DNA of 64,000 nt from Trichoderma breve (Eukaryota; Ascomycota; Sordariomycetes; Hypocreales; Hypocreaceae), in assembly GCF_028502605.1 (NCBI RefSeq), contig NC_079234.1, positions 620,001-684,000 of the forward strand, given 5' to 3'. The notes under the pieces are model-generated. The model worked only from the letters and a program-made list of their open reading frames with translations. It had not been told where the DNA came from and made no database searches. A program made the position numbers and the translations under genes. Shown piece after piece: positions 24,969 to 53,017 of this stretch. Each line of letters opens with the position of its first letter. Position 1 is the stretch's first letter.

Positions 24969-27900
24969 TTACTGAACTTCTTCAACGAAGCAAATTGGAT
25001 CGCCTGGTGAAACAATGGACCCTGGTTTCTGAACGACTTTGGTTACTCTGGTACCGATGAACTCATCTTCGCTGAAGACACTGATCTCCATCTTCATCGC
25101 TTCAAGGATGGTAATCAAATGGTTTTTCTGGATGATATCACCCTCCTTAACCTGCAGCTTCCAGACGTTGGCGTTCATTGGCGACGCAATATACGAGAGT
25201 TTTGGATCTATGAGAGGGTTCAGTTAATCATTTGACGTATGCTTGGATGGGTTACTCGCAGAGGAAAGACACGATTGAATCAAGAGTGGCGCAGGATATA
25301 GTCAACGTACCAGCTTTGAGTTTTTCAATATCGTCAGTGACAAATGTAACCATTGCTGCTTTACTAGCTTTCCATTCTGCAAGGAGAGAAGCTTCTTCCT
25401 TTGCCAATACCGCAGCCGCTTCGTCTTGTCTCTTCCGAACTTGTACCAAATCATCTTGAATGCTATCCAAAAACTCGTTGTATTCTTTCAAATCAAACTC
25501 AGCAGGTTGAATGTCGTATGTGAATTGACCTGCGTGGAAGTCATCGAGAAATTTGTTATATTCCTCTTCCGAGACTTGATAGAACTCAAACTGGTCAAAT
25601 GTTCGGAAAAAAGCAGGCTTGTTTCTTAGATACTGCTTATTAAGGCTGAAAAAGTCCCAGCCTGGAATAGAACGGCCCATCATCTGGAAGCCGCCAGGCG
25701 ATAGCGAGTTGTACAGGCTATCGGGTGCAGTCCTTCGTCAGTGGATGTCCTGAGTCGTAGGGGTGGTAACGGGGAGATTCATACCATGCTGAGATACCTC
25801 CAACACCAACACATCCTTCTGGCGTAGCTGTTCGAGGAGGGTTCCACTTGGGACATCTAAGCTGCTTTCGTGGATCCAAGTTGATGATACAAGGGACAGC
25901 AGTGTAAAAGCAAACAGAGACGCAGATCCATCTAGCCTTGATGAAAGTATCAAGGACATCCTGAGCAGTGATTCCGTTATTTCTAGCAACAAAATCAATG
26001 TTTGATGGCAAATACACAGCAGAAGAGCGAACAGCTTCAGCGTAGTCCTGAATGTACTTCTTGGTCACAGAATCATCCCAGACCAATGGTAGTCGAATTA
26101 TTCGACTAGGGAGCTTTGCCTGAGATGCATCTGGGATTCTCTGCTCGGCCTTTATGAGTTTCTCCATCAACTCAGATTGATGTAGTCGAGTGCCGTCAAA
26201 CTGAACGAGGAGGTCTGAAAGAAGCATCAGTGAGGCCTGTTATGACGCGTCATGATCCGACTTACTGATGTGAGTGGCGACACATCCAGAGATGCGATCG
26301 TCTTTCCAGGATTCTATCTCATTGGCCAAAAGCTCTACACGACCCCGAAGGTTGAGCGATGACTTTTGCTGCCCATATTCCACAAGAATGTATGTATCAC
26401 CAGCCTAGGCTCAGCATTTTTTGTTAGAAGATAGTTCAACGCCATGGTATAATAGATACAGCCATACCTGTCGGTACGTCGTTGGTGGTCGTGAATCTGT
26501 CTCGTGAATCTCCTTGATGACAGCAGATACATGGTCGCTCGGGACAACCCAATCAAGGGGTCTCAAATCCTTGATGCCTCCAGGTCGCTTAAAGGCTTCA
26601 GAAATCGCCGATATAAAATCTATCGTACGTTTACGCAGCTCTATGGCGCTATCAAAAGAGATAGGTTTGAACGTGACGGTGTTACCAGGTGATACTTGGC
26701 CGAGTCGCCAGAAGTCTGCGCGAACAACGGTATTTGTGGATATGAAACCACCCATATCTGGGCCTTCTAATGGCAGAATGTTTGCGCTGTTGGCAGTCTG
26801 TTAGCCGAGTACATCCTTCTATTGGAATTGGCATTTTTTGGAGGACACACGCGTCGCCAGCCCAATTCACGGCTCCAAGGGGATAGCCATATTCGAGAAC
26901 GTTGCTCGGATGGCCTCCTCCCTCTCCACCATCTTGGCGGCTGAACTCTGGCGTTGGGCCAACAATCGCAATACCGCTTCGACTGGCGTTGTGAGACACT
27001 TTCCTGTATTTTTCAAGATACGTCAGCAAATGGCGCATACAGACCACCTCGCAGCGTCATTTCATACCATTTTGTGTTGTAGAGAGTCTCAATTCCACTG
27101 TTGGTCAGGAAACCTACATCGTGTGGACCAGGGACGCAATAAATCTCCCAGTCCGACTCGTATTTGGGAAGTAGATCAGACGGGAAGGCCCTTGTAAACT
27201 GAGACAGCCGACTGACATCTTGCTCCTTTATGAAAATCAAATCACCTGCAGCCAGCCTTCGCCCTTGATATCCGCCAAAATTGCAAGCAATTGCATTGGA
27301 CTTGGAGCCGATGAACTTGGGGCTGTAGAACAATTAGCAAGCGTTGCCGTAATGGGCTTCTCCATTGACACACTTACACAGACGGAAAGCCCCCCGAGAT
27401 GGCCAGGTATGCCCGACAACCGTTACCCCTGATTTTCCCAAGTGATAGCCGCTGACCAGCCTTCACAGCGAAGCTCTCCCAAGATTTCTTGGGTTCACCA
27501 TCTAATTCGATGGCAATATCGGGCCCGCTGACGGCAACCAGGGCGTCTGCCAAGAAGCGGAGTTCCGGGCCAGCACCGGTCATTTCCAGAGCCTCCGTGG
27601 TTAGCTCATTGCCAACCAAGATGTTCGCGACTATACTTCTGTCAGCGTGTCACATCTGCCATTTCTATCCTGGGGCACTAACTCTGGAATGCCAGTGGAT
27701 CCTGTGACAGATGTTAGCATATAAGGAATTGCGGACGTGTTAGAGATGTTTCGTGTTCATACCATAGGACCGGACTCAGGTACGCCATTTCGTACACCAA
27801 ACCAGGCTGGGAGGTCCTGAATGTGTGTAAGAGGCCCCCCCGAGATGACATCAATTGCGCAAGGCTTGTAGTTAAACTTGGTCGAGAGGAAGTTTGTGGT

Positions 27901-29645
27901 TGTCTGTCCAGCCTTGAATGGCGGTGATGCCAGGATCTGTCGCAGAAAGTCGGCGTTTGTTGGTGGTCCAGCAATAACGGAATCGTCGATGAAGCGGATC
28001 AGCTTCTCGCTGCTTTCCTCCCGAGTTGGCGAATGTGCCATGAGCTTGGCAAGCAGGGGATCTTGGTCATCGGCTGTCAGCGCAAAAACCTACAGCAGCC
28101 GAGCAGTTGCTCCGTTACTCCACCCGTGCTCTACTATGTAGTTGACTCACCATAATATGCCGATATGTTGGTACCTTTCGTCACCCATGTGTCGATACGG
28201 ATGTCCCCCTTAGCCCACTCTAGATCTTGCAAGAGACCGGGCGAAGGCGCATAGTTGCGAACTGGGTTCTCCGCGTAAAGCCGCAATTCAACAGCTGCAC
28301 CCTGTGGCCCAGTTGGCTGGCGTTGCTTCAGATGCTTAATGCCACCAAGTGGCGAGGCTTCCGCGGCCGCCTGTTCATACATCATGGCGACAAGGTCCAC
28401 GTTGTAGCACAGTTCCGTGATTCCATGCTCCACTTGCAGACGGGTATTCATTTCAAGGAAAAAGAAGCTGCCGGTATCATCGTCCACTAGGAACTCTACC
28501 GTACCGGCGGACTTATACTTGACCAACTCGGCAAGCCGAATGGCCGCATCACTCAGCTTTTGGCGGAGCCCTGGAGTCTTCCCCACGAATAGACCTATCC
28601 GCACCGTTGAATTAGCTGCCATCAGGAGCTTCTGCTTGCACGAAGAAGTCTATTTGAAACTTACTGGGGCATTCCTCGATGACTTTCTGATGACGACGCT
28701 GGATGGAACACTCTCTTTCAAAGAAGGATATGGCATCGCCCAGCCCGTTACCGAAGATCTGGACCTCGATGTGACGACCCTGAGCAATGTACTTTTCCAT
28801 GAAGACACCAGCATTCTTGAACAGCGTCTGGCCTCTTGAAACAATGGTCTCGAAGTAATGCTGCACCTCGTCCGAGTTATTGCAAACTTGGAGGCCCCTT
28901 TAAAATAGACTTCAGCAGGGAAACAATGCGATCTGTTGAAAGGTCCGAGACTTACATACCACCACCTCCGGCTGTAGCTTTGAGAATGACCTGTGATGTG
29001 AATGGAATGAGTCGAAATGCAGCCTACTACTTCATGCGAACTCACCGGGAATCCGATCGCCTCTGCCGCCTGTCTCGCCTCTTGAGCACTCTTCAATAAG
29101 TCCTTGGTTCCTGGAACAATAGGAACGCCAGCCTCTTCCGCGAGAATCCGAGACGTGTGCTTGATTCCGAATGACTTGATCGTGTCGGAGCTGGGCCCAA
29201 TCCATGTCATGCCGGCCTTTACTACGTCTTCGGCAAAGTCGGTGTTCTCCGACAAGAAGCCATAGCCAGGTATTACGCTGGCAACATTTTCTGCCTGGCA
29301 AATTTCCAAAATTTCCGCGCTGTTGAGCATATGAGTTTAGGATCTCAAAGCGCTTTTTTGTTCCCCACGACTTACGTTTGCAGGTAGCCACCGGCGTTTC
29401 CTCCAGTCAGCGGCACCGCTTTATCTGCAAGACGAACATGAAGAGATTGTTGGTCCACTGGCGTATATATTGCTATAGTCTTGATTCCGAGAGCTCTTTT
29501 TTTTTTTTTTAACTTGTCAGGGCTTCTTCGACCACTGCACTAGTATCCGGGAATTCTTCACTTACTTGGCAGACTTAATGAGCCGGACTGCAATCTCCCC
29601 TCGATTGGCAATAAGCACCGGCGATATATGTGACATAGAGGCCAT
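24969..29645 (-). CDS. lamA: Biotin-dependent urea carboxylase-like enzyme (LamA type)
   Basis: Very large multi-exon gene (about 15 exons, roughly 1,200 residues). Domain order: biotin carboxylase N-terminal part (ISPVLIANRGEIAVRLI, PGYGFLSEN), ATP-grasp core (ECSIQRRHQKVIEE, FLEMNTRLQVEHGITE), biotin carboxylase C-terminal part (ENPVRNYAPSPG), a KipA-like half (27.9-26.4 kb; GGFPSV, GPHDVGF, PTPEFSRQDGGEGG), a KipI-like half (26.3-25.3 kb; PKWNPPRTATPEGCVG), and a C-terminal biotinyl domain with the lysine motif EAMKMEIS at about 25100. This is the urea carboxylase layout without the allophanate hydrolase half. From family knowledge, Aspergillus nidulans LamA has this type and is needed with LamB for 2-pyrrolidinone use; KipI/KipA homologues (PxpB/C) act with LamB-like PxpA as 5-oxoprolinase. 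I therefore infer ATP- and biotin-dependent lactam opening rather than urea use, though urea cannot be excluded. TACATGTA lies 47 bases upstream of the ATG. Confidence 0.82.
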
Positions 29646-30214
29646 CTTTGCAACTGCACTTATTTCGTGTGAAGCAGAACTCCTTGATGTCTACATGTAT
29701 CGATGAAGATTCACCATCAACAGCAACAAGGGTTTCGGGAGGTGTACTTTATGGATAAAGTATGTATGTGGGGCCCGACTGTTCCCATGGATCAGAGTTT
29801 AACACTAATGCCAGGCACGATAATTCATGGACTACAATTGCGTGTCCGGCGTCAAGGGCGTCTGTTGCGTTTGGATCGGCCTCCCCGCATACATGTAAGT
29901 ACAATGAGGTACTTCCAACGTCGACCAAATGTACATTACAATTTCCTTGGCTGCCACGCAGTGTAGCGTGAGTGCCGTCCGTGGTAACTACATGTCAATA
30001 CGATAGCAAGGAAGAAAAGACGCCTCCATCAGGCGGGTACAGCGCAGGTTGGGGACTAAACCAAAAAGTTGGCTTCTTCTTGACAGTCAGCATCTAATTA
30101 CATAAGGGTATGTACACCATCAGTTATGTTGAAGAGCAGTAGAAGATGGCATCCGATTTGCTACTACTATTGTTGCTATTTGTATCTGAGTCACTGATCT
30201 ATGGATGTTTCTCT
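29646..30214. promoter_or_regulatory. Upstream region of the LamA-type gene, two TACATGTA sites
   Basis: TACATGTA octamers at 29692-29699 and 29891-29898, with a near match (TACATGTC) at about 29988. They lie 47 and 246 bases upstream of the carboxylase start and downstream of the AtuA-like gene, so they most plausibly serve the carboxylase promoter. No other gene seen in the interval. Confidence 0.5.
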
Positions 30215-32261
30215 CTAATCTTCTTCCCAGCAGTAAGGTACGAACCGCTGGGGGATAGGAACCCTCTTCGCTCGTATATAGTCCGCAAACCCTTTGCCTC
30301 TCGAGTCCAACAGCGTAGAACTGCTAACGCCGCGCCCTAGAATTCCATAGATGACAAAGTGTACCGCGTAAATCTTGGGAAACTCCACTCTCTCAATGCT
30401 ATATGAATCTTTCCAGTCGCGGCCGATGAGTCCCCGGAAAGTGGAAATGGTCATGTAGGAGCGGAACCAGTCCCACACCTCAGCCGTGTGAACGAATAGC
30501 CCGCAATTCAGATTCGGTCCCTTGTCGCCGGATCTGCCCAGTGCTAAATTACCTAGAGGCATGGAGACGGTTGGGCCCATAGACGCCAGAGACACCGGCG
30601 ATGGTGAATCGTAGCTCACGCGTGGTTCAACAGGTTCAGATTGAGCCAATGGTGAAGACTCCACTGTCTGAATTACCTCGCCACTGGCGTCTAAGAAGTG
30701 CACGGCCTCATGCAGGTCATTCTGCTGTACGAGGGACGGATAGTAGACGTAGAAGGGTTTCGGGTTGCCCGTTCTCGAGTCCTGCGGTTGATAGCGACCT
30801 GCTGCTGTTAGATAAAACCACCCCCGTGCAATACAAGTGAACTGCCGCATTAGCCACTGACCTGAGAAGTGCTGCATGGACTCATTCTGGATCATCTTGC
30901 GGAACGCCAGGAGAGGCTCCTGGGTAAGCGCCTGCACATAAGTGCGGCAGTATGTTGTGCTTTCCAGCTGACTCTGAGGGTCATCCTGTGGCTTGCCGAC
31001 TCTGTAGTTCAACTCAACATAGTGATCAGGTTAGCTTCGAAATCGGGATGCACTCAATACATGTATTGGGGGGGGGGCTCAGCGCGCGGCACACGCACAC
31101 TTGGAAGTCAATCACGTCAAACGCGTCCTGCAGCCCAGCCTCGGCGATGCGGTATCTCATCTGTCGCTCGTACAGGAGGTACTTCTTGCTCGTCGCATAT
31201 CCACCGGCGTTTGTGAGGAACTCGGCCTCGAAGCCTCCCTTGTAGAAGATGGACAGTTTCGTCGTCGGGGGCGGCGGGCGGCCCACAACGCCACTGACCC
31301 TGACGCGGTCCTCGCCGGCAGCCACTATCTCGATGTCATCCAGGATAGCTTTCACATCGCTGTTGAGATAGACGTTGCCCTGAATCTCATAGAGAAGCTG
31401 GCACCGCACCGTGTCCTCGGTGACCATGCCGTTGGTGCCTCGGTGCTTGGTGATGACGCACGTTCCGTCGGCGTCGATCTCTGCAATGGGGAATCCGACA
31501 TCGACAAAGCGGTCCAGGGGATACCTGTGGAATCCGGAGAAGTTGGCGCCCGTCACGTAGCCAGAGCACTCGATGAGGTGCCCTGCAACCAAAGCCCCAG
31601 CCAGCTCGTTGTAGTTGGTGCTCGCCCAGTCATGCCACCACCACGCCGCGGCGATGACGGGTGAAGCATCAGCCACCCTGCCGCAAATGACAATCTGGGC
31701 GCCGTTGCTCAGACCGTCGACAATAGCCCGTGCCCCGAGATAGGCGCGACAGGCCAGGAGCGGGTTCTTTTCCGGGCCGCCCCAGGCGTGGGTGCTGCCC
31801 TGAACATCAACATCCTGGTGGAAGTACAAGGGGAGCTTCCCTTGCTGCGAGGTCCAACGGCGGACGTCCTCCAGCCTGTCGTCCCCGGACACGAAAGCCA
31901 CCCTGACTTGATGGCCCTTGCTGGTTGCGAGCTGCTGGCAGCGAACCGCCAGGGCCTTTGCGCCGAGGCCGCCGCCGTTGATGACGACCCGGATGCCCTT
32001 TTGCGCGATGACGTCGATGCTCTGCTGCAGAGCATCCCATGCGTTGGCCTTGAAGCCCTCGCCGGTGCCCGCGGCCATGGACTCGGCCTCCTGGGCCAGG
32101 TTGTTCTCGGCCAGCCAGTCGCCTGTGATGAAGTCGACCTGCCCGAGCTCGGCCTGCTTCTTCATCTGCCAGCCCGGGTCCAGCTGGGCACCGGAGCAGT
32201 TGGCGACTCTGACGGGCCTGAGGCCCTTGTCAGGGTGGTTTAGGGGTTCCGACAATTGCAT
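30215..32261 (-). CDS. AtuA-like (DUF1446) protein
   Basis: Protein of the AtuA/DUF1446 family with its C-terminal ferredoxin-fold domain fused, about 631 residues. Three exons: 32261-31101, 31012-30862 and 30798-30215, all in frame. The N-terminal domain shows RVANCSGAQLDP, VDFITGDWLAE, GIRVVINGGGLG, VICGRVADASPVIAAA and FHRYPLDRFVDVG; the C-terminal domain carries the typical LALGRSGDKGPNLNCGLFV. The bacterial namesake belongs to the acyclic terpene utilisation operon next to a biotin-dependent geranyl-CoA carboxylase, but its biochemical reaction is unproven. Here it lies beside a biotin carboxylase, transcribed in the same direction, and divergently from the cyclase gene. A role in handling the carboxylated or ring-opened intermediate is only inference. 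Intron 1 carries a TACATGTA. Confidence 0.85.
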
Positions 32262-32791
32262 GATGGATGTCTGGTGTTAATGCTGGGAAAGTCTGATCGG
32301 TTGGGCAATGCAGCAACGGCAGCGACTCAACGTCAGTTATCTTCGCGGAGCCAGATCAACGCGGCACCATCACATGATTACCTCGTGGCTAGCTCACAGA
32401 AGCAAAAAGCACGGCCGGGCGTGCGCGGTAGAATTACATGTATCTTGATGTCAGAGGCATCGGTGCAAGCCGTTGCTGTGTCGAGGTGCGCCAGTTACAT
32501 GTAGATGCTGAGACGCCGTAGACGCCCGAACCGATCGATTCGGAGGTGGGGAGGGAGGGACACACGACACGAGGCGGGGGAGATGGGGATTCGAAGAGAC
32601 GGGATTTAACACATACCAGATAGTTTAGAATTGAGATATCCATCTCCGTATTTTTCTCATCGTCTACCGGAGCCCGAGATTCGGCGCAGCAAGCAACATT
32701 TAAGGAGTCTGAGTACATACATGTATTTGAGCACTGCTCTGAGTTGCCAGGCAACAGAAACCAGCCAGCCAGCCAGCCCGTCGTCGACGCC
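32262..32791. promoter_or_regulatory. Bidirectional promoter with three TACATGTA sites
   Basis: The 530-base gap between the divergent AtuA-like and cyclase genes holds TACATGTA at 32435-32442, 32496-32503 and 32718-32725. The palindrome is symmetric, so one factor could control both directions. A run of CCAG units (about 32760-32776) precedes the cyclase start. Confidence 0.55.
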
Positions 32792-33769
32792 ATGTCTGGA
32801 CCGCCGATTCCATTCTCCAGCCTACCCGTCAACAAAGACAACCCGCTGTCTCGCCTCAATGCCTGGGGCGTGTACGGGCCGGACGACGAGGTGGGCTTCC
32901 TCAACCGCCAGACGCCCGACATCATTGCCGCCGCCGCCGCCAGCGAGATCAAGACGGGGATCCGAGTGGCACTAGACGCACCGCTGAGCTTCCAGGGCGC
33001 GGAGCCTCTGTTCGGGCGCCAGGCGTTCCAGCAGGACATGTACCAGAAGAAGCCCAAGATGGTGCACGACGACACGTGGTCCTTCAACACGCAGACTAGC
33101 TCGCAGTGGGACGGGCTCAGGCACTACGCGTACCAGAAAGTCGGGCTGTTCCACAACGGCACGACTCTCGAGCAGATTGCCACTACGGAGAAGCTGGGCA
33201 TGGGAAAGGTGGTCCAGCGCGGCGGCATCACGGGACGGGCCGTACTGGTGGACTTTGCACGGTGGAAGGACACGCCCGAGGGCGCCCGGGCGGTCAACGG
33301 CGAGTTTGAAAACTTCAAGACTTGCGCAATCAAGCTGGAATGGATCCAGGAGACGCTGGCCTACCAGGGAACCGAGGTGCGCTTCGGCGACATCCTGGTT
33401 GTGCGCAGCGGCTGGTTCCCGGCGTTCCGGGCGCTGAGCGAGGAGCGCCTGGCGGAGCTGCGGATGATGCGGCCGCCGCCGGTGGGCGGCCTGGAGCAGA
33501 GCAGCGGGACGCTGCAGTGGATCTGGGACAACTTCAGCGCCGTGGCCAGCGACCAGCCCAGCTTCGAGCGGTGGCCGACGCCGCTGGACTGGAGCCTGCA
33601 CGAGGTGCTACTGGCGGGCTGGGGGTGCAACATTGGCGAGATGTGGGATCTGGAGGAGGTCAGCAAGCGCTGCGAGGCGCTGGGACGCTGGAGCTTCTTC
33701 CTCGTAAGCATGCCGACGCATGTGCCGGGGGGCGTGGCGAGTCCCTCGAATGCCGTGGCCATATTCTAA
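32792..33769 (+). CDS. Cyclase / kynurenine-formamidase-fold hydrolase
   Basis: Single-exon gene for a cyclase-family protein (PF04199 type), a metal-dependent hydrolase fold that includes bacterial kynurenine formamidase and isatin hydrolase, which open amide or lactam-like bonds. From the ATG at 32792 it has 325 residues, close to the fungal family length. Visible blocks are NPLSRLNAWGVYGPDDEVGFLN, the substrate/metal region SSQWDGLRHYAYQ, GGITGRAVLVDFARW and HEVLLAGWGCNIGEMWDLE near the end. An in-frame ATG at 32744 would add 16 low-complexity residues; 32792 is preferred for alignment reasons. Placed in a cluster with LamA/LamB-type genes, a ring-opening amidohydrolase step is an attractive guess. 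It is GC-rich, unlike its AT-rich flanks. Confidence 0.85.
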   Translation: MSGPPIPFSSLPVNKDNPLSRLNAWGVYGPDDEVGFLNRQTPDIIAAAAASEIKTGIRVALDAPLSFQGAEPLFGRQAFQQDMYQKKPKMVHDDTWSFNTQTSSQWDGLRHYAYQKVGLFHNGTTLEQIATTEKLGMGKVVQRGGITGRAVLVDFARWKDTPEGARAVNGEFENFKTCAIKLEWIQETLAYQGTEVRFGDILVVRSGWFPAFRALSEERLAELRMMRPPPVGGLEQSSGTLQWIWDNFSAVASDQPSFERWPTPLDWSLHEVLLAGWGCNIGEMWDLEEVSKRCEALGRWSFFLVSMPTHVPGGVASPSNAVAIF

Positions 33770-34722
33770 TGGGGGAGCGACGAGGGTTGGCAGTGTTGAG
33801 AGACGAGACGGGTGAGGAGGAGGAGGAGGAGGAGGAGGAGGCGGTAGTAGAGGACCTGGAGGAGGTGATGCTAATGCTGATAGTGGTGATGCTAATAGTG
33901 ATACTAATAGTAATGACAGCAGTGATAATAGTAGTAGTAGTAGTTAAGGATAATAAGTAAGCAGGTATATACATGTAAGTAAATACCTAGTACTCTATAC
34001 TTCCAAGTAATGCGTAAACTACGTGGACTTCATAAGTATATTATGTATCTACCCTAAGTACCTTAACTAAGACAGAAGCATAAGGTACCTATTTAATACA
34101 GAATTACTAATTATACTACTCCTTACCTATAGATTATTGCCTACCACATTGTATATTGATACATGTAAATTCCTTCCTCTCACAGTATCTATCTATCTAT
34201 GAATCATAGTATTACACAATAAGCTGTTTGCGCAAACACATGGCTCGCAATTCACGGCCCAGCATTACTTACTTAGTCACTCACTCACCCACTACTATCC
34301 ATCCCCGTATGGCGCCAGTGTTGGGCGTTTGCGGCGGGGCTGGCGTGTGCAGCGCATACTGTAGGTAGTGCCCGTAATCTGGCCCTGTCCTACTTTTGCC
34401 TGGCCCCCGCCGAACCCAGTGCCGGGACAAACTCTACGGAGCAGCCGTGCTCGCAGACGCAAATGATCCAATACTAGAGGCAGAGGTTTTTCTACTGCTA
34501 CTAACTGACTGATTTATTAACGCGGCCAGCCACTGCTACTGCTGCTTGCCTGACTCCTATTGTTTACAATCAACAACAGCCACTGACTTACCTCGTCCCT
34601 TAGCTCGGCTGGCTCTCTCTGTAATCCATAACAGCCTTCAGCTTAACTACCGAGCTTACTTACAATACTTGTAACAATAACAACAACAATAATAACAAAA
34701 ACAACAACAACAATAAGCAAGG
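33770..34722. promoter_or_regulatory. Intergenic with triplet repeats and two TACATGTA sites
   Basis: Begins with GAG-repeat DNA (about 33815-33842) and GATGCTAAT/AGTAGT-like triplets (33860-33945). TACATGTA lies at 33970-33977 and 34160-34167, about 560-750 bases upstream of the aldehyde dehydrogenase. A CAA/AAT-rich leader (34670-34718) immediately precedes that gene's ATG, as is common in unstructured fungal 5' leaders. Confidence 0.5.
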
Positions 34723-36302: not shown

Positions 36303-37460
36303 ACGACAGACTGATGATAGACTAACTGCAGTGCTGCTAGTAGTATCACTACCGTACTCGTATTCTCTCGCAAATCTCGAGGAAAATTAGCCAATTACAT
36401 GTATTTATCCTATCCAAGACAGGGTTTAATTCTGGGGAGATGCACAGTCGAAGTTTACGAGAGAATACGGTAGTCTGTTGGTAACGAACTCTGGGGCGGA
36501 GGGCAGGGTCAAAAAGGGAGGGGGCCAAACACAGATTCGCTGGCTGTTCTTGGCCGCGGGCTGGGTCTCGTCTCTCTGTATGAACAACTTGTGGCACTTT
36601 CCGCAGATAGAAGAATATACATGTAGGCAGAAATATATGCTTTTCATCCATCACCTGGCCACACGCGCGATCCTTTTGTGCTGTCCTTTGCCCCCTTAGA
36701 ATCATGGCGCCGGTTTGAATTCCATCCATTGAGCCCAAGCAGGGGACCCCTTATAAACGAAGGTAATATAATAGTAATAATAATTTACGTACATGTAGCT
36801 AACGCATGGCTGATTAATTGAAGTCCCTGCGTAGGGCCATGTCCATAGTATACACACATATATAAACCGAGAGGCATATGCACAGTGGCTTACACTCTTA
36901 TAACACACGCACACACTCACAGTGGCTTACACACACGCTCACAGTGTTTTACACACTTACATGTACACAAATGTCCCGCTTGGGTACTGCCATGTACTGG
37001 CGCAAGCTCTAGTACTGCCCTAACTCCGTTCCGCTACTCCCAACTCTGCTGCTATCAGCCCCAAGTCAAGAGCCATCTATCCATGGCTAGCGACAGTCCC
37101 AGGGCTTATATCCTACCGCTGGCCCGACCTCACTCTCTCTATCTGGGCCTCGGCCTTGTTAGTCTCTGTATTTTCCAGCCTCAGAGCCTTACACCGTCTT
37201 CCCTTCTGTGCCTCTCTCTCCCCCCTCTCTCTCTCCCCCCCTCTCTCTCCCCCACCCTCTCTGTTTATCTCTATCTATCTATCTATCCATCTATCTATAT
37301 ATATATATTTGATGTGTGTCCTCAGCTGGATACAGGCAGCGTCTTCTTCTTCAAAATAATAGCAACAGTAACAACTAGAACAACGGCGACAACAACGTTC
37401 CCTTGCCCTCCATCTCCCTCTCTCCCTGCCCCTCTACCAAGCTCCGCCAACGCCGCCACC
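36303..37460. promoter_or_regulatory. Promoter region of the cluster regulator, four TACATGTA sites
   Basis: TACATGTA at 36396-36403, 36618-36625, 36790-36797 and 36958-36965, the densest intergenic group in the window. A repeated CACAGTGGCTTACAC element lies at about 36882 and 36918, and a CT/TATC microsatellite at about 37203-37310. If the octamer binds the product of the following gene, this would be autoregulation. Confidence 0.5.
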
Positions 37461-42637: not shown

Positions 42638-44473
42638 ATGTCTCGCTATGTCCCAAACTTGTACAACTTCTGGATTGTTATCTTCGTAGCTCTCGGATCT
42701 GCGGCATGTGCTTACAGTATTGCTGTCATCGGGTATGGGCTGCTTGATGTGTCTCCCCGGTGCCTCGATCCAGTATTTTAACCACTTTGCAGGTCCACGA
42801 CCGGCCAGCCGTCGTTCTACCGGTCTCTCGGTCTCGCAATGCAGGGCGAGCCGGGATACAGTAGGACAAATCACTTGATCGGCGCATTCAATGGTACGCC
42901 TATTTACATTCGCCCCATGCAACATATCAGGACTGTGGTCGAGTTACTGATACAGCTGAGCAGGCGTCAACTCCGCTGGCGCCGCGCTCGGCGCGATCCA
43001 AAGCGCTTGGTTGATGGAACGATACTCTCGAAAATATACGATTCAGTTTGGGGCACTCATCCAGATCATCGGCGGTGCTCTCTGCGCTGGTTCCATCAAC
43101 GTAGGAATGTTTCTGGCTGGTAGATTCATCGTGGGCTGGGCTATTGGAATTCTGTATACGGTAAGCTTCCCAGACCTTTCTAGATGTTACATGCAGCCTT
43201 CCATGTGCTCGACGAGGCTGACAAGTCTTCACTACCAGGCCATCCCCGTTTATCAGAGTGAGATGAGCACCCCTGCCACCCGCGGTTTCATGGTCTCTAT
43301 GCACGGAATCATGATTGCCATTGGCTATCTCCTCAGCTCATGGATCGGATTTGGCGTCTACTTCATCACTGCCAACGGTTCCGACTCCAGCTTCCCATGG
43401 CGTTTCCCCATCAGCTTCCAGATCGTCCCAGCCATCCTTCTCCTGGTGGGCTCGCCTAGGCTTCCATTTTCGCCCCGGTGGCTCGTTCAGAAAGGACGGT
43501 ATGAAGAGGCCAAAGAAGTCCTACGCAGCCTGCATACCTTGAAAGATAGTGACGATCACACCATCTCCAATCGGGAGTTTGACCAGATTCGCCAGCAAAC
43601 CGAGGCCGACCTGGCGGTCAAGGAGCACACCACATGGTACGAGCTGGTCCGAACTCCAGGCAACAGGAAGAGGGCTTTGATTGCTGTCTTTCTGTTCTGG
43701 GGAAATCAAATGACCGGAAACCTTGTCATCGCCAATTACGGAACAATCATCTTTGCCTCGCTCGGAATGACTGGGTATATGCCTTTGTTGCTTCTGGCTC
43801 TCTGGATCGTCGTGTCGGTTGGCGGCAACACCATTTGCGCGCTGTTCCTTGATCGTTTCGGCAGACGAAACTTCATGCTTGTTGGTATCGCCGGTATGTT
43901 TGCTGCGCTTCTCGGCGAATGCATCACCCAGGCTGTTTCCGTCAACAATGACCCCAACTCCAACATCCCTGGAAAACGCGCCGCAGCATTCTTCCTCTTC
44001 TTGTGGATTGCTTTCTACAGCTCCTGCCAAGATGGGACGCAGTATGTCTATCTTGCTGAGATATACCCTAATTATCTACGGGGCCAAGGTACTGCGTTTG
44101 GCATCTTCAATCTCTTCATTGCGTCTATTGTCGTCTTGGTAGCCGCACCGACCGCTTTCAGCAGTAAGCATCCCCTCCTGCCCTCGCTTTCGACACCGTG
44201 CAAAGCCTTACTAACTTCGCGTGTGCAGCCATTGGTTGGAGATTTTTCATTGTCTTTATCGTGCCGACCTTCTTCTACTTCTGGATCGTGTATTTTATGT
44301 TCCCCGAGACTCGCCTCAAGTCCTTGGAGGAGATTGCAGAGCTGTTCTCCGAGTCCGTTGCGGTTCATCTCGATGAGGCCAACGCAGAAGATGAAAAGAC
44401 AGAAGGTGTCAGTATGACAGAAAATGTATCAGTGAGCAAGGATGGAGCAACAACCAAGCAGGAGACGGTTTAG
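42638..44473 (+). CDS. MFS transporter of the sugar porter family
   Basis: Twelve-helix major facilitator transporter in the plasma membrane, of the fungal sugar/quinate/lactose permease type. Five exons start at 42638 (MSRYVPNLYNFWIVIFVALG), with introns near 42733-42793, 42894-42964, 43160-43239 and 44164-44228. Family signatures are present: GRFIVGWAIGILYT after helix 4, RWLVQKGRYEEA between the halves, DRFGRRNFMLVG in the second half, YLAEIYPNYLRGQGT, and the terminal PETRLKSLEEI. The tail is acidic and Ser/Thr-rich, as in porters under endocytic control. Probably imports the cluster substrate or a sugar-linked precursor; specificity cannot be read. Confidence 0.9.
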
Positions 44474-44555
44474 GGCAGGTCAACCAGGCAACTACTTGTC
44501 ACACGTATGTAGTTTACCTTTATCTATAAAGACCAAGGGCAATTACACCCTTATT

Positions 44556-44757: not shown

Positions 44758-45440
44758 GTTCATGCTTCCTCAATAGGTCTTCTCGATTTTCATGCATCTC
44801 GCATGGATCAAGGTTTCCTGAGTCTTCAAACTGTGCAAACCAGTTGTGCTGCTGTAGATTGTTATGGATCGGTACTTGAGGTAGGCATGAGACTGTGCAT
44901 TAAGGCCTGCCTTGGCATGTTGCCCCGTTTACATGTACTTAATATTTTACGGAGTGTTCAGCATCCGTATGTCCGGAATGCATGCATGAAGCTCCTCCAC
45001 CTCACCGAGACCACGCAATCAGCGGTAAACTTAATGTGGCTCACTAATCTGGAACCAAAGCCATCGACTTGCGGCATATCTAGGGGGGCTGGCCCACGCT
45101 AGCGGAAAGCTTGCCATAACCCAAGAATCGTGTATCGCGTTTGTGGCGAGAATCCTGGGTAGCGTGATAACGCTTGGGAACATACATAACCCCTCTAACA
45201 AGTGTTGGAGAACGCTCTTGTCAGTCCGGGGGCCTATGTATAGATATATATTACCCCGCATGGAGAGGAGAATTAGAAAGACAATCGTTATATGTATGTT
45301 CGTATATTAATCCGTGTGTGATTGATAAGGTTGTGCACTGCCAAATTGCCGTCAACTTCATAGCCTAGATCCTACAGCAATCTCCCCCGTTCAGAGTTAC
45401 TTTGCCTGTCTAAGCTTTTTGAACCAACGTCGTTACAATC
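44758..45440. promoter_or_regulatory. LamB-type gene upstream region
   Basis: TACATGTA at 44930-44937, about 500 bases upstream of the LamB-type ATG. Open frames in the interval show no motif. Confidence 0.4.
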
Positions 45441-46587
45441 ATGCCGAGAATCCAGCAGCCCGCCAAGATCAATGTCGATCTGGGCGAAGCTTTTGGAAAC
45501 TGGAAGATGGGGCCTGACGATGAGCTCCTGCCTCTGGTAAGAGAAAATATCCGGACCTGGAGTTTGGTCCTCTGATGAGGTTACTTGGACTCTAGCTCAC
45601 CTAGGCTGTTTTTGGGTAGATTGATCATGCCAATGTTGCATGCGGCTTCCATGGGTGAGTAGAAACATTGTTAATTCCAACCCCAGATACGATACACAAG
45701 ATCTTGATATGCTTTGAGCTTCTGCTGACGAATGACAGGGGGTAAGTACAGTCGTATACCCATACGACGTCGCTGGCTTTGTGTCCGTCAGCATGGACTA
45801 ACCAGTTCAAAGTGACCCGGTCACGATGATGGAGACTATTCGCAAAGCTAAAAAGTACGGTGTCAAGGTTGGCGCCCATCCTGGCCTCCCTGGTACGTAT
45901 TTACTCTTCTCTAGTCTCACCAAGTTTCACTGTCGCTGATACGCTTGTTCTGCAGACTTGGTCGGATTCGGACGGCGTGTCATGAATATCACGCCAGATG
46001 AGGCCTATGCGATTACCGTCTACCAGGTGAACGCCCTAAAAGGTTTCCTGGAGGCCGAAGGCATGACACTTCATCATGTGAAGCCTCATGGAGTTTTCTA
46101 CGGCATGATGATGAAGGATTACGACATCGCTCTCGCCGTGTGCCGAGCTATACCTAAAGGCGTCCCAATCTTCCTGCATACTGATACCCTAACTGAAAAG
46201 GCAGCAAAAGAACTGGGTGTTCCGTATATTGCCGAGACATGTGTTGATATCAGATACGGCAACGGTGGCATTCCGGTGGTCAACAGGAGAATGAGGTATG
46301 TCACGCTGTTTTACCCAAAACTCGCTTCTGAGCCCCGGTAGCTGAAGGTTCGCAGCCCATGGAAAAAGGAGGAAATTCAATACAACATCAACAACGTAAT
46401 GGAGAACTGCCAGGTGGACACTGTAGAGGGCGGTAAGTATGACTTCCCTCTGGCCAACCACGAGGTCACTATCTGTGCGCACTCGGATACACCTGGTGCC
46501 CTGGAAGTTGTCAAGGCTATGCGAGAGTCAGTGGATGAATTTAATGCCAAGTACTTCCCCGATTTTAAGCGAAATAGCTCTATCTAG
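45441..46587 (+). CDS. lamB: LamB/YcsF family protein (PxpA-like)
   Basis: LamB/YcsF protein with a (beta/alpha) barrel, homologous to A. nidulans LamB (2-pyrrolidinone use) and bacterial PxpA, the A subunit of 5-oxoprolinase. Exons: 45441-45536, 45620-45654, a 3-base micro-exon 45739-45741, 45813-45892, 45956-46295 and 46356-46587, total 786 nt or 261 residues. Motifs: INVDLGEAFGNWKMG at the N-terminus, HANVACGFHGGDP across the micro-exon, VGAHPGLPDLVGFGRR, VKPHGVFYGMM. The micro-exon GGG is bounded by canonical signals and restores the conserved H-x-G-D spacing; skipping it would leave the frame open but delete one glycine. It should work with the KipI/KipA domains of the LamA-type enzyme on a lactam substrate. 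Confidence 0.9.
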
Positions 46588-47232: not shown

Positions 47233-48450
47233 ATGGCCCGCCTTTTTAACCTTTCCGCGCTTCTGGGTGTGATTGTCGCCTTAGCCCCTTCCTCTGAGGG
47301 TGTTGCCACGGCGAATAAGCAGGTTGAAGTGCCGCGTGAGCTGACGTACAACCTTCCTCAAACATTTCACTCGGATCTCGCCCAAGGGTTCCTCGGAGGC
47401 ACAGTCACCACATCTAAGAAGACTCAACGCCTACTCAAAGAGGCCTTTAATGCCAACTTCGTTATTTATGATGCCGAATTCAAAGATATTCTTGGCAAAA
47501 ACCCTACTCTCGAACTTGTTGCTCAAGATGACGAGGTAGTTGCATACGAAGGCGGTCTCTGGGTGGCTGACCGCGACGAGGTGTGGATGACGAGCTCCGT
47601 TGTGGTATACAACAGAACTTGGATCTCGATTCTGAAGTTGAAGGACAATACGATCCACACGCCTTCATTCCATGGGGACGACTTTGTTACACCAAATGGT
47701 GGATACTATTTCAATGGCACGGCATACTTTGGCACGGTGGGAAACGTGACGTCTCCCGCTGGTGTCGTCGGTATCAACCCCAGGACCAAGGAGGTTACTA
47801 CTGTTGTCAACTCCTATTTCGGACTCAACTTCAACTTTATCGATGATGTTGCATGGACCCGTCGCTGTGGCAAGAACTACATGTTCTTCACCGACTATGG
47901 GACACCAGCGGTGTTCCCAGGAGTTGCGAACAAGGGCAAGCTTCAAATCGCTAATGCTGTCTGGCGATTTGATCCTCAAGATGCAACTCTGATGCCAGTC
48001 ATCCTTCGTTCTGAAGTCGCAGCACCAAATGGCGTTCGGGTCAATGCGGATGGGACTAAGTTGTTCGTGGGTGATTATTCGCTCACTTCAGTGATCGGTG
48101 CAGCAAACGAAACCTTTGGCGGTCCGTCCGTTATTGAGTATGATTTGGACGAGAATGCTCGACCGGTGAATAAGAGGCCCTTCTTCATGGCTAGGGATGC
48201 TGCTGTCGATGGCATCCATCTTGACGACTTCGGAAGAGTTTGGACTGCTGAGGATGATGCTATTTCTGTCCGCGATAAGAAGGGCAAGCTTTTGGGATCC
48301 ATCAACACCTGGAACCTGCGGGAGAATTCAACAGTCCCTGTGGTTGCAAACTTTGCTCTGGCTGGGGACAGGCTTGTCGTGCTGGCTTCTACTCGCATTT
48401 GGGTCGTAAAGCTCGGCCAACAGCTTGTCTCTGGTGGAGATCTCAGTTAA
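47233..48450 (+). CDS. Secreted SMP-30/gluconolactonase-like protein
   Basis: Single-exon gene for a six-bladed beta-propeller of the SMP-30/gluconolaconase/LRE-like family, 405 residues. The ATG at 47233 gives a clear signal peptide (MARLFNLSALLGVIVALAPS), so the product is secreted; upstream in-frame ATGs would hide it. Propeller features include WVADRDEVWMTS, the metal-ligand region SEVAAPNGVRVNADGTKLFVGDY, and DGIHLDDFGRVWTAEDDAI. Several N-glycosylation sequons fit secretion. Members hydrolyse lactones or related cyclic esters and need a divalent metal. Extracellular opening of a lactone or lactam-like precursor before uptake by the neighbouring transporters is a reasonable inference but not shown. 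The catalytic assignment is by fold only. Confidence 0.82.
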   Translation: MARLFNLSALLGVIVALAPSSEGVATANKQVEVPRELTYNLPQTFHSDLAQGFLGGTVTTSKKTQRLLKEAFNANFVIYDAEFKDILGKNPTLELVAQDDEVVAYEGGLWVADRDEVWMTSSVVVYNRTWISILKLKDNTIHTPSFHGDDFVTPNGGYYFNGTAYFGTVGNVTSPAGVVGINPRTKEVTTVVNSYFGLNFNFIDDVAWTRRCGKNYMFFTDYGTPAVFPGVANKGKLQIANAVWRFDPQDATLMPVILRSEVAAPNGVRVNADGTKLFVGDYSLTSVIGAANETFGGPSVIEYDLDENARPVNKRPFFMARDAAVDGIHLDDFGRVWTAEDDAISVRDKKGKLLGSINTWNLRENSTVPVVANFALAGDRLVVLASTRIWVVKLGQQLVSGGDLS

Positions 48451-49367
48451 AAAGCTCCAGGGTATGTGTCGAAAAGGTGAAGAGAAGAGTCGTAGGCGCT
48501 GCGATGGAGCTGTTGGGATGCAAAAAGTTTTATAATATGTAGTCCTCTACCTAGATAGCGTGATAAATCAAACAGACCCGACATTTCCTAGCCAACACCA
48601 CAGTGCTTTCATCTTAGCGTTGACTGATACATTAACTTATACAGCGAGCGCCGCCACCCACGTTCACCTCGCCAACATTGCGTTAAGGTCATGGTAAGAA
48701 GGATCGGAGTCCCAATCAATTGCAAAGTGTCTACTGCATACATGTACGCCATGAATTGAGTTATGCCACCGCTTGTTTATCACCTCTTGCGTTTAGAGCA
48801 GACAGCGGCTGAAAATACCTGAATGACTGGGGACATGCGCTGATCTTTGGCGTTGCGATAAGGCTTCTCCCCGACTGGGCGGTTTGCTTCTATTGTCGCC
48901 GGGACTCACCGAATTACGCACGAAACTAACCGTGTAGATACGAGAAGATACCAAGTTCTTGACGCCCTCTAATATCATTGATATCAGACGCCCGAACTGC
49001 TGCGCAGCCGAAGCGCCTGGCACGCCGGATACGCCGAAGACGCCAATGGCTGAACTAGTCGTAGTTCCAGATTGCATGGACTCCATTCGGTCGCAGTCCG
49101 GGGTAATGGACCCCCCAGATTCTACAACCCCAGCTTTATGGGGATGTGCTGCGTCTGTTAGCCAGAGCATACTACATGTATGCTGCAGCCTTAACAGGCG
49201 AGCCAGTTACTCCCTTTCTGATGACCCTGGGAAGTAGTTACGATTGGATACTGAGAGAATATATAGTCCGTCAACTATTGCGTTCCAGGAGAAGAAACAC
49301 CTCGGTCCATTCATGTTCATTCTCTGAAAACTAACAGCCATTGCCCATACTATTTTTCGCCACCATC
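48451..49367. promoter_or_regulatory. APC permease upstream region, two TACATGTA sites
   Basis: TACATGTA at 48739-48746 and 49173-49180, about 620 and 190 bases upstream of the permease ATG. No other gene seen. Confidence 0.45.
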
Positions 49368-51354
49368 ATGGACGAGGTTACCCCTACGAATGCCAAAACG
49401 GCAGATGGTCTCAATAATGATGATCTGGAGCTGCATGCACAAGGTTACGATCGTGAGATGCCAAGGCGCTTTTCCTTGGTATCTCTGATCTCGCTTTCCT
49501 ATGCGTTGTTTTCTACATGGAACGGTTACGGTAGCTCATTTGGCATAGGCTTTACTGAAGCCTCCTCTGCGGGCTCACTGTACAGCCTCATCATTGCTGC
49601 CGCCATGACAGCCTTAACAAATGCGGGAATGGCTGAGCTTGCCTCGGCCTATCCCGTTGCTGGAGCCCAGTACTACTGGTCATTTGTCGTATCCAGACCG
49701 GACTGGGCTCCATTCGCTTCGTACATGTGAGAAAAAGCCAAATGCCGTCTCCCAAGCACTGACAAATCGGTGAATTACTGACCCATATCTTCAAAGGGCT
49801 GCCGGCGTCAGCACTCTTGGTTGGTGGCTCGGCCTCGCTAGTGTCACGAACTTTGTGGCCGCCATGATTCTTGGTATTGCCCAGCTTAGCTATCCCGAAT
49901 ATACCATCACCCGCTGGCATACTTGGCTCGTGTTCGTGGCCATCACATGGCTTGCAGTTGGATTCAACGTGTTCTGCACGAAGTGGCTGCCCCTATGGAA
50001 TAAGTTTATGCGCAAGCAAAGTTCTCGCCACCACACACAGTCAGTCCCTTTGCTAACTCACCCTTCAGTATATTTCTCTATAATTACGATGACTGCCACG
50101 ACAGTCACCCTGTTTGCTTGTGCGGCGCCCAACTTCCAGACAGCAAAATTTGTCTTTACGGATACCACAAACTCAACAGGCTGGAGCAATGACGGCTTTG
50201 CGTTCCTGCTTGCTATCCTAAACGCACTATACGGATTCCTCGGCGGAGACGCTGGAGCCCACTTGTAAATATACGCGAAAGACGTTGCCTCTCCATGGGC
50301 TGACCGTATTCTCTAGGTGTGAAGAAGTGCCGAATCCAAAAGTGAACGTACCGAAGGTGATGGTAAGTGATTAGTATCTACTCCTGCCTTCGATCCAGCA
50401 CTAACCCTCCGCAGATGTATCCGATCTTGATGGGTGTGATCAGTGGTAGGTTGCAGTTCCTCTCGATACTGTGAATTTGACTAAAATAAGTTTTGCCTAG
50501 CCCTCCCTTTTGCTATTGCCTTGTCTTTCGTCATCACCGACTTTGAAGCTGTCCTTACCACACCAACTGGACTGCCCCTGATCGAGGTCTATTATCAAGC
50601 TACTGGTAGCAAGGTTGCCACATCCATTCTGATGACCGCATTTGCTGTTTGCTTCTTTGGATGCGCTACTGCCAATATCACCACCTCTAGTCGGCAGATG
50701 TGGTCGGCCTGCAGAGATGATTGCTTCCCGTTCTCCAAATACTGGAAGCAGATCCACCCACGCTGGCAAATGCCCGTGAATGCCTGTTGTCTCTCTGGCA
50801 CTCTCGTGACGGTGAGTTACGGAGACAGCCTTGGACCCGAGATTGTGCTGAAGCTAATGGCTTGTCCAGCTGTATGGGCTCATATTCCTGGGTTCTTCCG
50901 CGGCATTTGCTTCTATGGTCGGAGCCTGCATTGTTTTCATGACAACGTCATACGCCATTCCTCAAGGCATCCTGGCATGGCGCGGGCGAGACAAGGTTCT
51001 CCCACCTCGAGCTGTGAATCTGGGCCGATGGGGCCTAGTCCTCAATATCTTGAGCTGTGTCTGGGTAGCTTGCATCAATGTCGTCTACTGTATTCCTACA
51101 ACCTACCCAGTCACCCTCGAGAACATGAACTGGATATCGTAAGAGCCCTTTGGCACCGAAGCCTTCTATCTCTTTTTCTAATATCAACTAACACGGCTTC
51201 TAGTGTTGTGACAGTGGGAATCATCGCCTTTCTTCTCATCAATTGGGTTACCAACCAGAAATATGTTTTCAAAGGCCCGAATATCAACTTTGAAGTTTTG
51301 AATGCGAACGCTCATGATTTTGTGGAGAAACAAACGGAAACGAGCACATCGTGA
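49368..51354 (+). CDS. APC-family amino acid/GABA permease-like transporter
   Basis: Plasma-membrane amino acid/choline/GABA transporter of the APC superfamily (fungal GabA/Uga4-like group). Eight exons: 49368-49726, 49797-50011, 50069-50264, 50317-50362, 50415-50445, 50501-50811, 50870-51138 and 51204-51354. Motifs: an N-terminal REMPRRFSLVSLISLSYALF, AELASAYPVAGAQYYW, NSTGWSNDGFAFLLAILNA and FAVCFFGCATANITTSSRQMW. The 57-base intron at 50012-50068 has a GC donor (GCAAGC) and branch CTAAC; because it is a multiple of three without a stop, retention would add 19 residues inside a membrane segment. In the lactam context, uptake of GABA or a related omega-amino acid or lactam is likely. Two TACATGTA sites lie upstream. 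Confidence 0.88.
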
Positions 51355-51876
51355 TCATTTGGCTTCGATTTCCATCATGGGGTTACGGAGGCCAGTGACT
51401 TGGATTGAGGGCAATATACATGTATACATGCTGTATGGAGCCATAAGGGTTCACAAGCATCGCCATGGTTCAAGGACCCCGAACTGGTGCCGCAACTTCT
51501 ATAGTTACTATTATATATGCTTGAACCTTGACTTCAGAATCAATAGAGTTCCAAATGGAATTCATATATCGCAACAGTTTGTCGTCGTGAATTTTTAAAC
51601 TGAATTAATTTCGCGCTCACTGCCTTACGAGACGGTTATGGGGATCTCCGTAGACAAAGAGACTCCCTTTGCGCCTGTGAACACATCATAGAACAGTTGC
51701 CATAACCATGACGGGGATGTGCAAAATGTTGCAACAGGAGGCAGCCATGGCGAATGCATATCATTGAGCGGCTAATAGTGTGCACGTTTGATACATGTAT
51801 TCTTCAGTTCTCTGATTTTTTCTCTTTCATTTTCTATCTACCTGTTTGTTCTTCAGTCCACCAAGGGAGAGAGACC
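51355..51876. other. Convergent 3' interval with two TACATGTA sites
   Basis: The permease and the alcohol dehydrogenase converge here. TACATGTA occurs at 51417-51424 and 51792-51799 although no promoter is expected, which weakens a purely promoter-based reading of the motif. No gene seen. Confidence 0.45.
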
Positions 51877-53017
51877 TTAAAGTAGAGACTCATCAACGAC
51901 GCAGACAGCCTTGCCCTTCATTTTCCCAGAGTGTGCCAGCTCGACCATCTTTGGGATTTCCTTAAGACCGTTATACTTGTTCACCTCCACCTGGATATTG
52001 TACTTGGCTACATCGTTCACCATGGCCTGGGTAACTTCTTGTCCAGCCCCTAGAGTGCCAATAACCCGAATATCACGGAAAACAAGCTCCTTGAAAGGGA
52101 TGTTGACCACGTCAGGTTGTGCGACCTGGATCATGGTTCCATGCATTCTGGTCACTGCGCAACCAGTTGCGGCAGCTGTATCATGGTCGCTCAGGTTAAT
52201 CGTAGCCTCAACACCACGATTATCGGTAAGAGCATGAACAGCCTTGACGACTGATTGGAGCCCCTCGCGGGCGTCAAGGACGACCTTGGCACCAGCCTTG
52301 TTGCAAAGGGCAAGGCCCTCATCGCGCGCATCAATAGCGACCACGTTGATACCTCGCGCCAATGCGAACTGGATGCCAAGATGGCCAAGTCCACCACCGG
52401 CACCAACAATGGCGAGCCAGCCCCCTTCCTTGACATTGCTCATGTTGATTGTGCGGTAGACAGTAGTCCCTGCACAGGCTAGCGGTGCAGCACTGAGGAA
52501 GCTGACAGAGTCAGGCAGATGCGCCGTGGTTCGGCTGTCAGAAATGTGATAGTCGGCGAACGCTCCGTCTATCAAAATGCCCAGGTACCCATCGACCTTC
52601 TGGCAGTATTGACGCTGGTCGTCATGGGAGTTACACTCGATGCAGTCTCCACATCGCCCCCTACCCATGCCAGACATGACACGATCGCCTGGCTTGAAGT
52701 TATCGACCTTTGGACCGACAGCCACGACTACACCGCTGCCTTCGTGTGATCCTGTGCAGGGTATCGGGGTTGGGAAATAGCCTTCCATCACCATGAAGTC
52801 GGTGTGACATAGTGAAGCCACTGCCGTTTTGATGAGGATCTCGTATCCTTTCAAGTTCTTAGGGGTCGGGATCTTGTGAACAACGTAGGGCTTGTGGAAC
52901 TATGGGCAATTGCGTTAACAGATTTGGTCATCGTTCACAGCTCGCCAAGGTGCAAGATTTGCTTACCTCCACAACCTGGCACGCCTCCATCTCGTCTGGG
53001 ATATCTGTCAGAGCCAT
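51877..53017 (-). CDS. Zinc-dependent alcohol dehydrogenase
   Basis: Medium-chain, zinc-dependent alcohol dehydrogenase, cytosolic. Exon 1 is 53017-52967 (MALTDIPDEMEACQVVE) and exon 2 is 52899-51877, giving 357 residues. Catalytic zinc ligands appear in ASLCHTD and GSHEGSGVV. The structural zinc site has its four cysteines in GRGRCGDCIECNSHDDQRQYC. The NAD-binding fold has GAGGGLGHLGIQFA, followed by an acidic residue (VVAIDARDEG), which favours NAD over NADP. The group is close to fungal ADH1-like enzymes. In the cluster it could interconvert a semialdehyde and hydroxy acid, as an alternative to the aldehyde dehydrogenase. It marks the far border of the block, and TACATGTA lies 259 bases upstream of its start. 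Confidence 0.92.

Follow-up and report, generated by a model that had tools for sequence, protein, structure and literature searches.

A palindrome recurs in the promoters of an eleven-gene block

What holds together the eleven genes that lie side by side at positions 24969-53017 of a 64,000-nucleotide stretch of the Trichoderma breve genome (hereafter the window; C3:620001-684000 of the 38.55-Mb host genome, whose nine contigs are labelled C1, C2 and so on), and what would they do together? An initial annotation had taken this block, which contains LamA- and LamB-type genes, for a self-contained lactam pathway. Our comparisons indicate that the block exceeds chance co-location, because its genes share a promoter element, the palindrome TACATGTA, and four of them recur together elsewhere in the genome. 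With moderate confidence we read it as a candidate cluster of co-regulated catabolic genes that would act on a nitrogen-containing ring compound (a lactam, cyclic amide or imide).

To delimit the block, we used our own splice-aware gene finder, with the host genome as training set (exon boundaries may be slightly displaced), which placed exactly eleven gene models at 24969-53017, the same limits as in the initial annotation. Pfam (for ten of the eleven proteins), NCBIfam and PDB matches bore out the gene families named there, and all eleven genes are intact as modelled, the models being free of stops. The block opens with two minus-strand genes, which encode a LamA-type protein of the urea-carboxylase family (24969-29645; 1241 aa, 16 exons) with Biotin_carb_N, CPSase_L_D2, Biotin_carb_C, CT_A_B, CT_C_D and Biotin_lipoyl domains in one chain and EAMKM in the biotinyl domain, and an AtuA family protein (30215-32261; 629 aa) with an AtuA domain and a C-terminal ferredoxin-like domain, AtuA_ferredoxin. 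Eight plus-strand genes follow: a PF04199 cyclase-family hydrolase (Cyclase; 32792-33769; 325 aa, single exon), an aldehyde dehydrogenase (ALDH; Aldedh; 34723-36302; 491 aa), a Zn2Cys6 transcription factor with Zn_clus and Fungal_trans_2 domains (37461-39455), a class-III aminotransferase (Aminotran_3; 40346-41947; 435 aa, 5 exons), a sugar-type MFS transporter (Sugar_tr; 42638-44473; 520 aa), a PxpA-like LamB/YcsF protein (LamB_YcsF; 45441-46587; 261 aa, 6 exons), a secreted-looking protein resembling SMP-30/gluconolactonase (SGL; 47233-48450) and an amino-acid permease of the APC superfamily (AA_permease_2; 49368-51354; 539 aa). A minus-strand zinc alcohol dehydrogenase (ADH; 51877-53017; 357 aa), placed via NCBIfam and PDB matches, closes the block. 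NCBIfam also matched LamA (together with PDB), the ALDH, the aminotransferase, LamB and the permease. Pfam matches are near full length except in the SMP-30 protein, whose SGL match covers profile positions 106-222 of 246, and in the permease, whose match is split into two stretches. Two starts were judged by eye: the regulator frame is open from 37083 and probably starts at 37461, which we prefer because the sequence upstream is of low complexity, and the SMP-30 frame is open from 47161, with a start moved to 47233 that leaves a plausible signal peptide.

A search for 8-mers over the ten intergenic promoters of the block gave a single answer, TACATGTA, which is present in eight of them, as compared to at most six for the best 8-mer in 60 shuffled sets; in the non-coding DNA of the block, no other 8-mer is as strongly enriched. 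The same palindrome occurs in only 5 of 49 control promoters (genes scoring at least 8 whose upstream gap is 300 bp or longer, trimmed to 955 bp). When ten control promoters were drawn at random 300 times, a control that allows for the discovery of the motif in the same ten promoters, no 8-mer was common to more than six. In total, the 29-kb block holds 21 copies (about 1.8 expected from the genome-wide count) and the remaining 35 kb of the window two, the window total of 23 exceeding anything seen in 100 shuffles (mean 0.74, highest 4). Outside the block, 15 copies occur in 175 kb (the window outside the block and 140 kb from elsewhere in the host genome), and genome-wide there are 2425, 2.2-fold the 1088 copies of the pattern read backwards. 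One-base variants of TACATGTA are not enriched in the block. Four of the five control promoters with a copy belong to neighbouring genes at C2:305-311 kb, which are able to share one site.

By the gene models, 18 of the 21 block sites are intergenic, one is intronic and two, which overlap each other, are coding, and nine of the eleven genes have a copy within 1.2 kb upstream. These copies lie in the promoters of LamA (29692-29897; sites at 29692 and 29890), of AtuA and the cyclase, which share theirs (32435-32725; 32435, 32496 and 32718), of the ALDH (33970-34167; 33970 and 34160), the regulator (36396-36965; 36396, 36618, 36790 and 36958), the aminotransferase (40043-40050), LamB (44930-44937), the permease (48739-49180; 48739 and 49173) and the ADH (53276-53283, the last site of the block). 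The remaining copies are located in an AtuA intron (31058-31065), inside the regulator coding sequence (38860-38873; two overlapping sites at 38860 and 38866) and in the convergent 3' gap between permease and ADH (51417-51799; 51417 and 51792). At spacings of 40-70, 155-185 and 186-216, ranges picked because the block has pairs at them, the genome contains 18, 12 and 15 pairs (0, 4 and 2 for the backward control), of which 1, 3 and 3 are in the block; no other neighbourhood in these lists exceeds three pairs (C4:1.64-1.66 Mb).

From this distribution we infer that TACATGTA is a putative operator and the block one regulon, and autoregulation of the Zn2Cys6 gene through its four promoter sites is possible. 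Several points speak against such an assignment: the bulk of the 2425 copies lies outside the block, showing that the motif is not private to it; TACATGTA is devoid of the CGG triplets that we take to be usual for Zn2Cys6 sites; and the MFS and SMP-30 genes have no copy within 1.2 kb upstream. The palindrome may be a wider promoter element in the host genome. In the DNA examined outside the block, 12 of the 15 sites are non-coding, though half of that DNA is coding.

Other candidate elements fared less well. CGG-type Zn2Cys6 sites were rejected as the block element (of 63 forms tried, the strongest gave P 0.035 in 200 shuffles, which is not significant), and the excesses of GATA (35 versus 25 expected, P 0.025) and of CreA-like sites (37 versus 21.8, matched by none of 200 shuffles, an excess that CCT repeats could cause) are not used as evidence. 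A second dense place for TACATGTA, with five sites at C1:722-724 kb, lies between F-box-like and PARP-like genes, and no cluster was seen among the translations of 8 kb inspected there by eye. In the open-licence literature searched, TACATGTA occurs in three papers, each concerning Phytophthora.

Parts of the block recur elsewhere in the genome

Are the eleven genes bound to each other? About 116 kb past the block, at C3:789-802 kb, we found a second AtuA (38% identical), ALDH (45%), sugar-type MFS transporter (38%) and cyclase (50% over the last 94 residues), joined by another zinc ADH, distinct from that of the block, and, by eye, a Zn2Cys6-like gene. Genome-wide searches gave no LamB, KipI-type or close aminotransferase match at this locus, and there is no TACATGTA in 20 kb. 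At the adjoining C3:784493-789112 the gene finder apparently fused two genes. The window cyclase has matches at four genome loci, two of which adjoin AtuA genes. AtuA, cyclase, ALDH and transporter are thus, as far as sequence can tell, a separate recurring module.

Conversely, a second LamA (1239 aa) and LamB are encoded at C2:326868-334974, separated by an MFS gene and flanked by a C2H2 regulator and a flavin oxidoreductase in a five-gene locus (C2:323649-337125). The window LamA and LamB are about 44% identical to these counterparts and hence are a paralogue pair in a different gene setting. A third AtuA, 49-52% identical to the window AtuA over most of its length, is situated about 20 kb from the C2 pair, and the genes in between are apparently unrelated. 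The available text of PMC8675399 describes an inserted segment of 5-6 genes in Trichoderma with urea carboxylase, NADPH dehydrogenase, LamB, MFS and C2H2 regulator genes, for which a urea cluster was not established. The same five families are found at C2:323649-337125, whereas the window block has only LamA and LamB in common with this segment, its MFS transporter being of the sugar type and its regulator Zn2Cys6. The proposed tie of LamA and LamB to the other nine genes does not survive this comparison, and we reject an obligate eleven-gene lactam pathway, since both the LamA/LamB pair and the AtuA module are also found separately in this genome. What endures of the self-contained pathway is a coherent, probably co-regulated catabolic cluster with functions in transport, ATP-dependent ring opening, transamination and oxidation.

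The recurrence of the AtuA module without LamA/LamB at C3:789-802 kb could also mean that the block consists of two units, a carbon-ring module (AtuA, cyclase, ALDH, ADH, sugar-type MFS transporter and regulator) and a lactam unit (LamA, LamB, aminotransferase and permease), that are neighbours by chance or only loosely connected. Base composition points in the same direction: the third-codon-position GC content (GC3) is high in the central genes at 31-42 kb (ALDH 0.939, cyclase 0.874, aminotransferase 0.741, regulator 0.736, AtuA 0.735) relative to 44 other genes (0.553 ± 0.088), while LamA and LamB have near-average GC3 and are intron-rich (15 and 5 introns), and cyclase and regulator are intronless as modelled. 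However, TACATGTA is present in promoters of both sets, and the two sets are interleaved along the block, leading us to consider two units unlikely and to retain the single cluster. The contrast in GC3 and introns may reflect codon selection or mixed origin. The 15 LamA introns show no mutual similarity beyond 10-11 bp, and an introner-like origin is rejected; a check for repeat-induced point mutation gave TpA/ApT of 0.56-0.98, no strong signal.

We also searched 42 bacterial loci fetched with AtuA (tblastn, E 1e-6; several loci span only 4-12 kb, and regulator matches were dropped). AtuA was re-matched in 37 of them. LamB, cyclase and aminotransferase matched in none of the 42, which tells against the cluster reading, and neither did SMP-30, MFS transporter or permease. 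LamA matched in 17 loci, only in or around the biotin-carboxylase part, as is expected for acyl-CoA carboxylases; ALDH and ADH matched in one locus each (L071 and L077). Long open frames near AtuA in the Actinomadura and Actinoallomurus loci were uninformative by eye, no family scan having been made. With no support in the 42 loci, bacterial operons are rejected as proof of linkage.

Upstream, a gene-poor region of lower GC content (window 16.7-25 kb, GC 0.41-0.48) lies between the block and genes for an OPT-like transporter, a regulator-like protein (both by eye), a transaldolase-family protein and a short-chain dehydrogenase/reductase. Directly after the block, on the minus strand, comes an NLR-like gene (53952-59528) for a large protein in which a P-loop-like region and numerous ankyrin-like repeats were recognised by eye. 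The window further encodes a fungal rhodopsin-domain membrane protein (1256-2842) and a metallo-beta-lactamase-fold protein (60731-61726).

LamA and LamB suggest a lactam rather than a urea-type substrate

To what extent does the LamA/LamB pair identify the substrate? In Aspergillus nidulans LamA and LamB are required for 2-pyrrolidinone, and gabA is the permease serving the lactam product. The window pair has the hallmarks of such a fungal lactam pair: a four-domain single-chain LamA, the EAMKM biotin site and a linked LamB/YcsF gene, 15.8 kb away. The likeness to the A. nidulans system, in which AmdR controls amdS, gatA, gabA, lamA and lamB according to the available text of PMC8016842 (lamA/lamB with gatA and gabA under AmdR/IntA), extends beyond the pair to a transaminase for the product (gatA) and a permease (gabA). 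Unlike in A. nidulans, the window functions sit in one block, which also contains AtuA, cyclase, ALDH, ADH, SMP-30 and its own Zn2Cys6 regulator, and the aminotransferase is of the ornithine-aminotransferase subgroup.

The bacterial 5-oxoprolinase PxpABC consists of separate subunits and has no biotin carboxylase or biotinyl part, unlike the window LamA, which is one chain with both. The likeness to PxpABC, and to pxpTABC of Corynebacterium glutamicum as covered in the accessible part of PMC13274462, resides in LamB (PxpA), CT_A_B (PxpC), CT_C_D (PxpB) and an APC-superfamily transporter. LamB narrowly misses the cut-offs of two PxpA models (NF003814, 223.5 versus 226; NF003816, 201.3 versus 213), and the C2 LamB is just over two PxpA subfamily cut-offs. 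The caprolactamase CapAB likewise hydrolyses a lactam at the expense of ATP. It differs in belonging to the hydantoinase/oxoprolinase family, to whose ATP-dependent carboxylases PxpABC has no similarity, as stated in the portion of PMC8453981 at hand.

LamA could instead be a urea- or guanidine-type carboxylase, in which case the cluster would serve a ureido or guanidino compound. Counting against the lactam reading and in favour of this one, LamA scores 1225.6 bits to the urea_carbox model TIGR02712 and has K. lactis urea carboxylase (3va7) and urea amidolyase (5i8i) as its nearest solved relatives, and the homologous Trichoderma gene is labelled urea carboxylase in the available text of PMC8675399, which leaves its urea-cluster status open. 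Yet both LamAs fall short of the curated cut-off of 1303.85 (1266.2 bits for the C2 LamA), no allophanate hydrolase/amidase family is represented among the eleven genes, and LamB falls in the 5-oxoprolinase subunit family. Moreover, the genome has a separate third CT_C_D gene, C4:71602-77094, whose 1830-aa product is urea-amidolyase-like as judged by length and LamA match (its amidase half was not scanned); the window LamA is closer to the C2 LamA (44%) than to this protein (35%). The biotin site of the C4 protein reads ESCKME in place of EAMKM. We therefore regard a urea- or guanidine-type carboxylase as distinctly unlikely and keep to the lactam reading, which draws on the functions of LamA and LamB and is tempered by the sub-threshold LamA score and by the second pair in a different five-gene block.

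The aminotransferase and cyclase have predicted changes in their active sites

The best PDB match of the aminotransferase is 5viu, named acetylornithine aminotransferase, and the next twelve are ornithine aminotransferases (OATs), such that its proposed ornithine-type assignment holds for the sequence subgroup. It does not extend to the substrate site: the protein scores 318 bits to the ornithine model TIGR01885 (curated cut-off 378.4), and alignment to the host's own OAT (C5) shows the changes Y55→V, Y85→F, R180→M and E235→V at what we take, from human enzyme numbering and roles, to be ornithine-site residues. With the catalytic lysine, T322 and R413 kept, the enzyme is probably active with an amine donor other than ornithine, and ornithine and GABA are both disfavoured by the changed pocket. 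The second LamA/LamB pair in the genome, and a pocket unlike that of ornithine aminotransferase, make plausible a substrate other than plain pyrrolidinone, as the initial annotation had envisaged.

The cyclase and its copy at C3:799 kb both contain QTSSQWDGLRH, resembling QGSTQWDALSH of PDB 5ibz, at a position presumably corresponding to the HxGTHxDxPxH metal motif of kynurenine formamidase. The window cyclase is thus predicted to belong to a cyclase subfamily with altered metal ligands.

AtuA is a putative carbon-carbon lyase

AtuA had been given no role in the initial annotation; we propose that it is best read as a putative C-C lyase, on account of the CmlA-like fold of a bacterial relative that is 37% identical to it. 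This proposal has to be set against the facts that the modelled protein is that relative and not the window's own, that the profile link between AtuA and CmlA is weak (E 0.0068), that hhalign gives a probability of only 9.3% for AtuA versus a CmlA-like protein, and that a PDB search with just the window AtuA gave no match to CmlA at E up to 10. Citramalate lyase CmlA/CmlB (PDB 9erq and 9evf, known here from entry titles and search results) has DUF4387 (CmlB), whereas the C-terminal domain of the window AtuA matches AtuA_ferredoxin only; that 9evf_B is not among the matches listed for the fold of this domain proves nothing. DUF4387 itself was found in the host genome at C1 and at C3:6.2 Mb, and an AtuA-DUF4387 (CmlA-CmlB-like) fusion at C1:7019271-7021091 is apparently a fungal citramalate lyase. 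Beside the fusion (C1:7016474-7021091) is a Zn2Cys6/Fungal_trans_2 gene with TACATGTA upstream, which is the best match to the window regulator among the loci compared.

A proposed route for a nitrogen-containing ring

How might these activities be joined? From the computed gene content, intact domains, shared element, AtuA fold relation and altered aminotransferase pocket we infer every reaction, the reaction order, the binding protein and the substrate of the following scheme. The compound would be handled by the secreted SMP-30-like hydrolase and/or taken up directly via the sugar-type and amino-acid-type transporters, and its ring opened by the cyclase-family hydrolase and by LamA (with ATP, bicarbonate and the biotin carrier) together with LamB. 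The aminotransferase would then remove the freed amino group, ALDH and ADH would oxidise the aldehyde or alcohol to a hydroxy-carboxylic acid, and AtuA, acting like citramalate lyase, would split this acid, yielding an acetyl unit and a keto acid. Control of the block through the TACATGTA palindromes would fall to the Zn2Cys6 protein or to a different regulator. As an illustration and not as evidence, 3-hydroxy-3-methyl-pyrrolidinone could be converted to citramalate by opening, transamination and oxidation, using LamA/LamB, aminotransferase, ALDH and AtuA.

Such a cluster could alternatively detoxify or turn over a cyclic plant or microbial defence compound, nutrition being secondary, in the manner of the Fusarium benzoxazolinone clusters. 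Dedicated Fusarium verticillioides clusters are induced by lactam xenobiotics (PMC4726666, PMC10512309, as far as their available text goes), one induced set including a putative cyclase (PMC10512309). The terms 'lamb', 'lactam utilization' and 'AtuA' are all absent from the available text of PMC10512309, as are 'lactam utilization' and 'carboxylase' from that of PMC4726666; the FDB1 gene table in the latter has no gene of this kind. Since two uptake-type transporters, a transaminase and dehydrogenases favour assimilation, detoxification strikes us as very unlikely, and we continue to favour a catabolic cluster. The accessible portions of PMC5610705, PMC8683493, PMC8844935, PMC3948071 and PMC6262169 contain nothing decisive on the cluster.

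In its boldest and decidedly doubtful form, the proposal would be a new and complete fungal route: LamA/LamB would open a hydroxylated lactam with a methyl branch, and transamination and oxidation would turn it into an acid like citramalate or 3-hydroxy-3-methylglutarate. AtuA, as a C-C lyase of a new, acetyl-releasing type related to citramalate lyase, would cleave this acid to an acetyl unit and a keto acid, with AtuA, ALDH, ADH and cyclase as a reusable back end and TACATGTA as the operator of a new Zn2Cys6 regulon. If true, the C3:789-802 kb copy would serve as the back end for an analogue without nitrogen, for instance a lactone.

More generally, a list of family names becomes a testable unit with one operator sequence, one candidate regulator and eleven targets, and annotations of fungal urea carboxylase and LamB genes may have to reckon with two unlike gene settings within one genome. 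The AtuA family, whose function is unsettled, gains a concrete chemistry to test, and a C-C lyase would matter for the bacterial degradation of acyclic terpenes, with its AtuA step, as well as for fungal catabolic clusters with AtuA.

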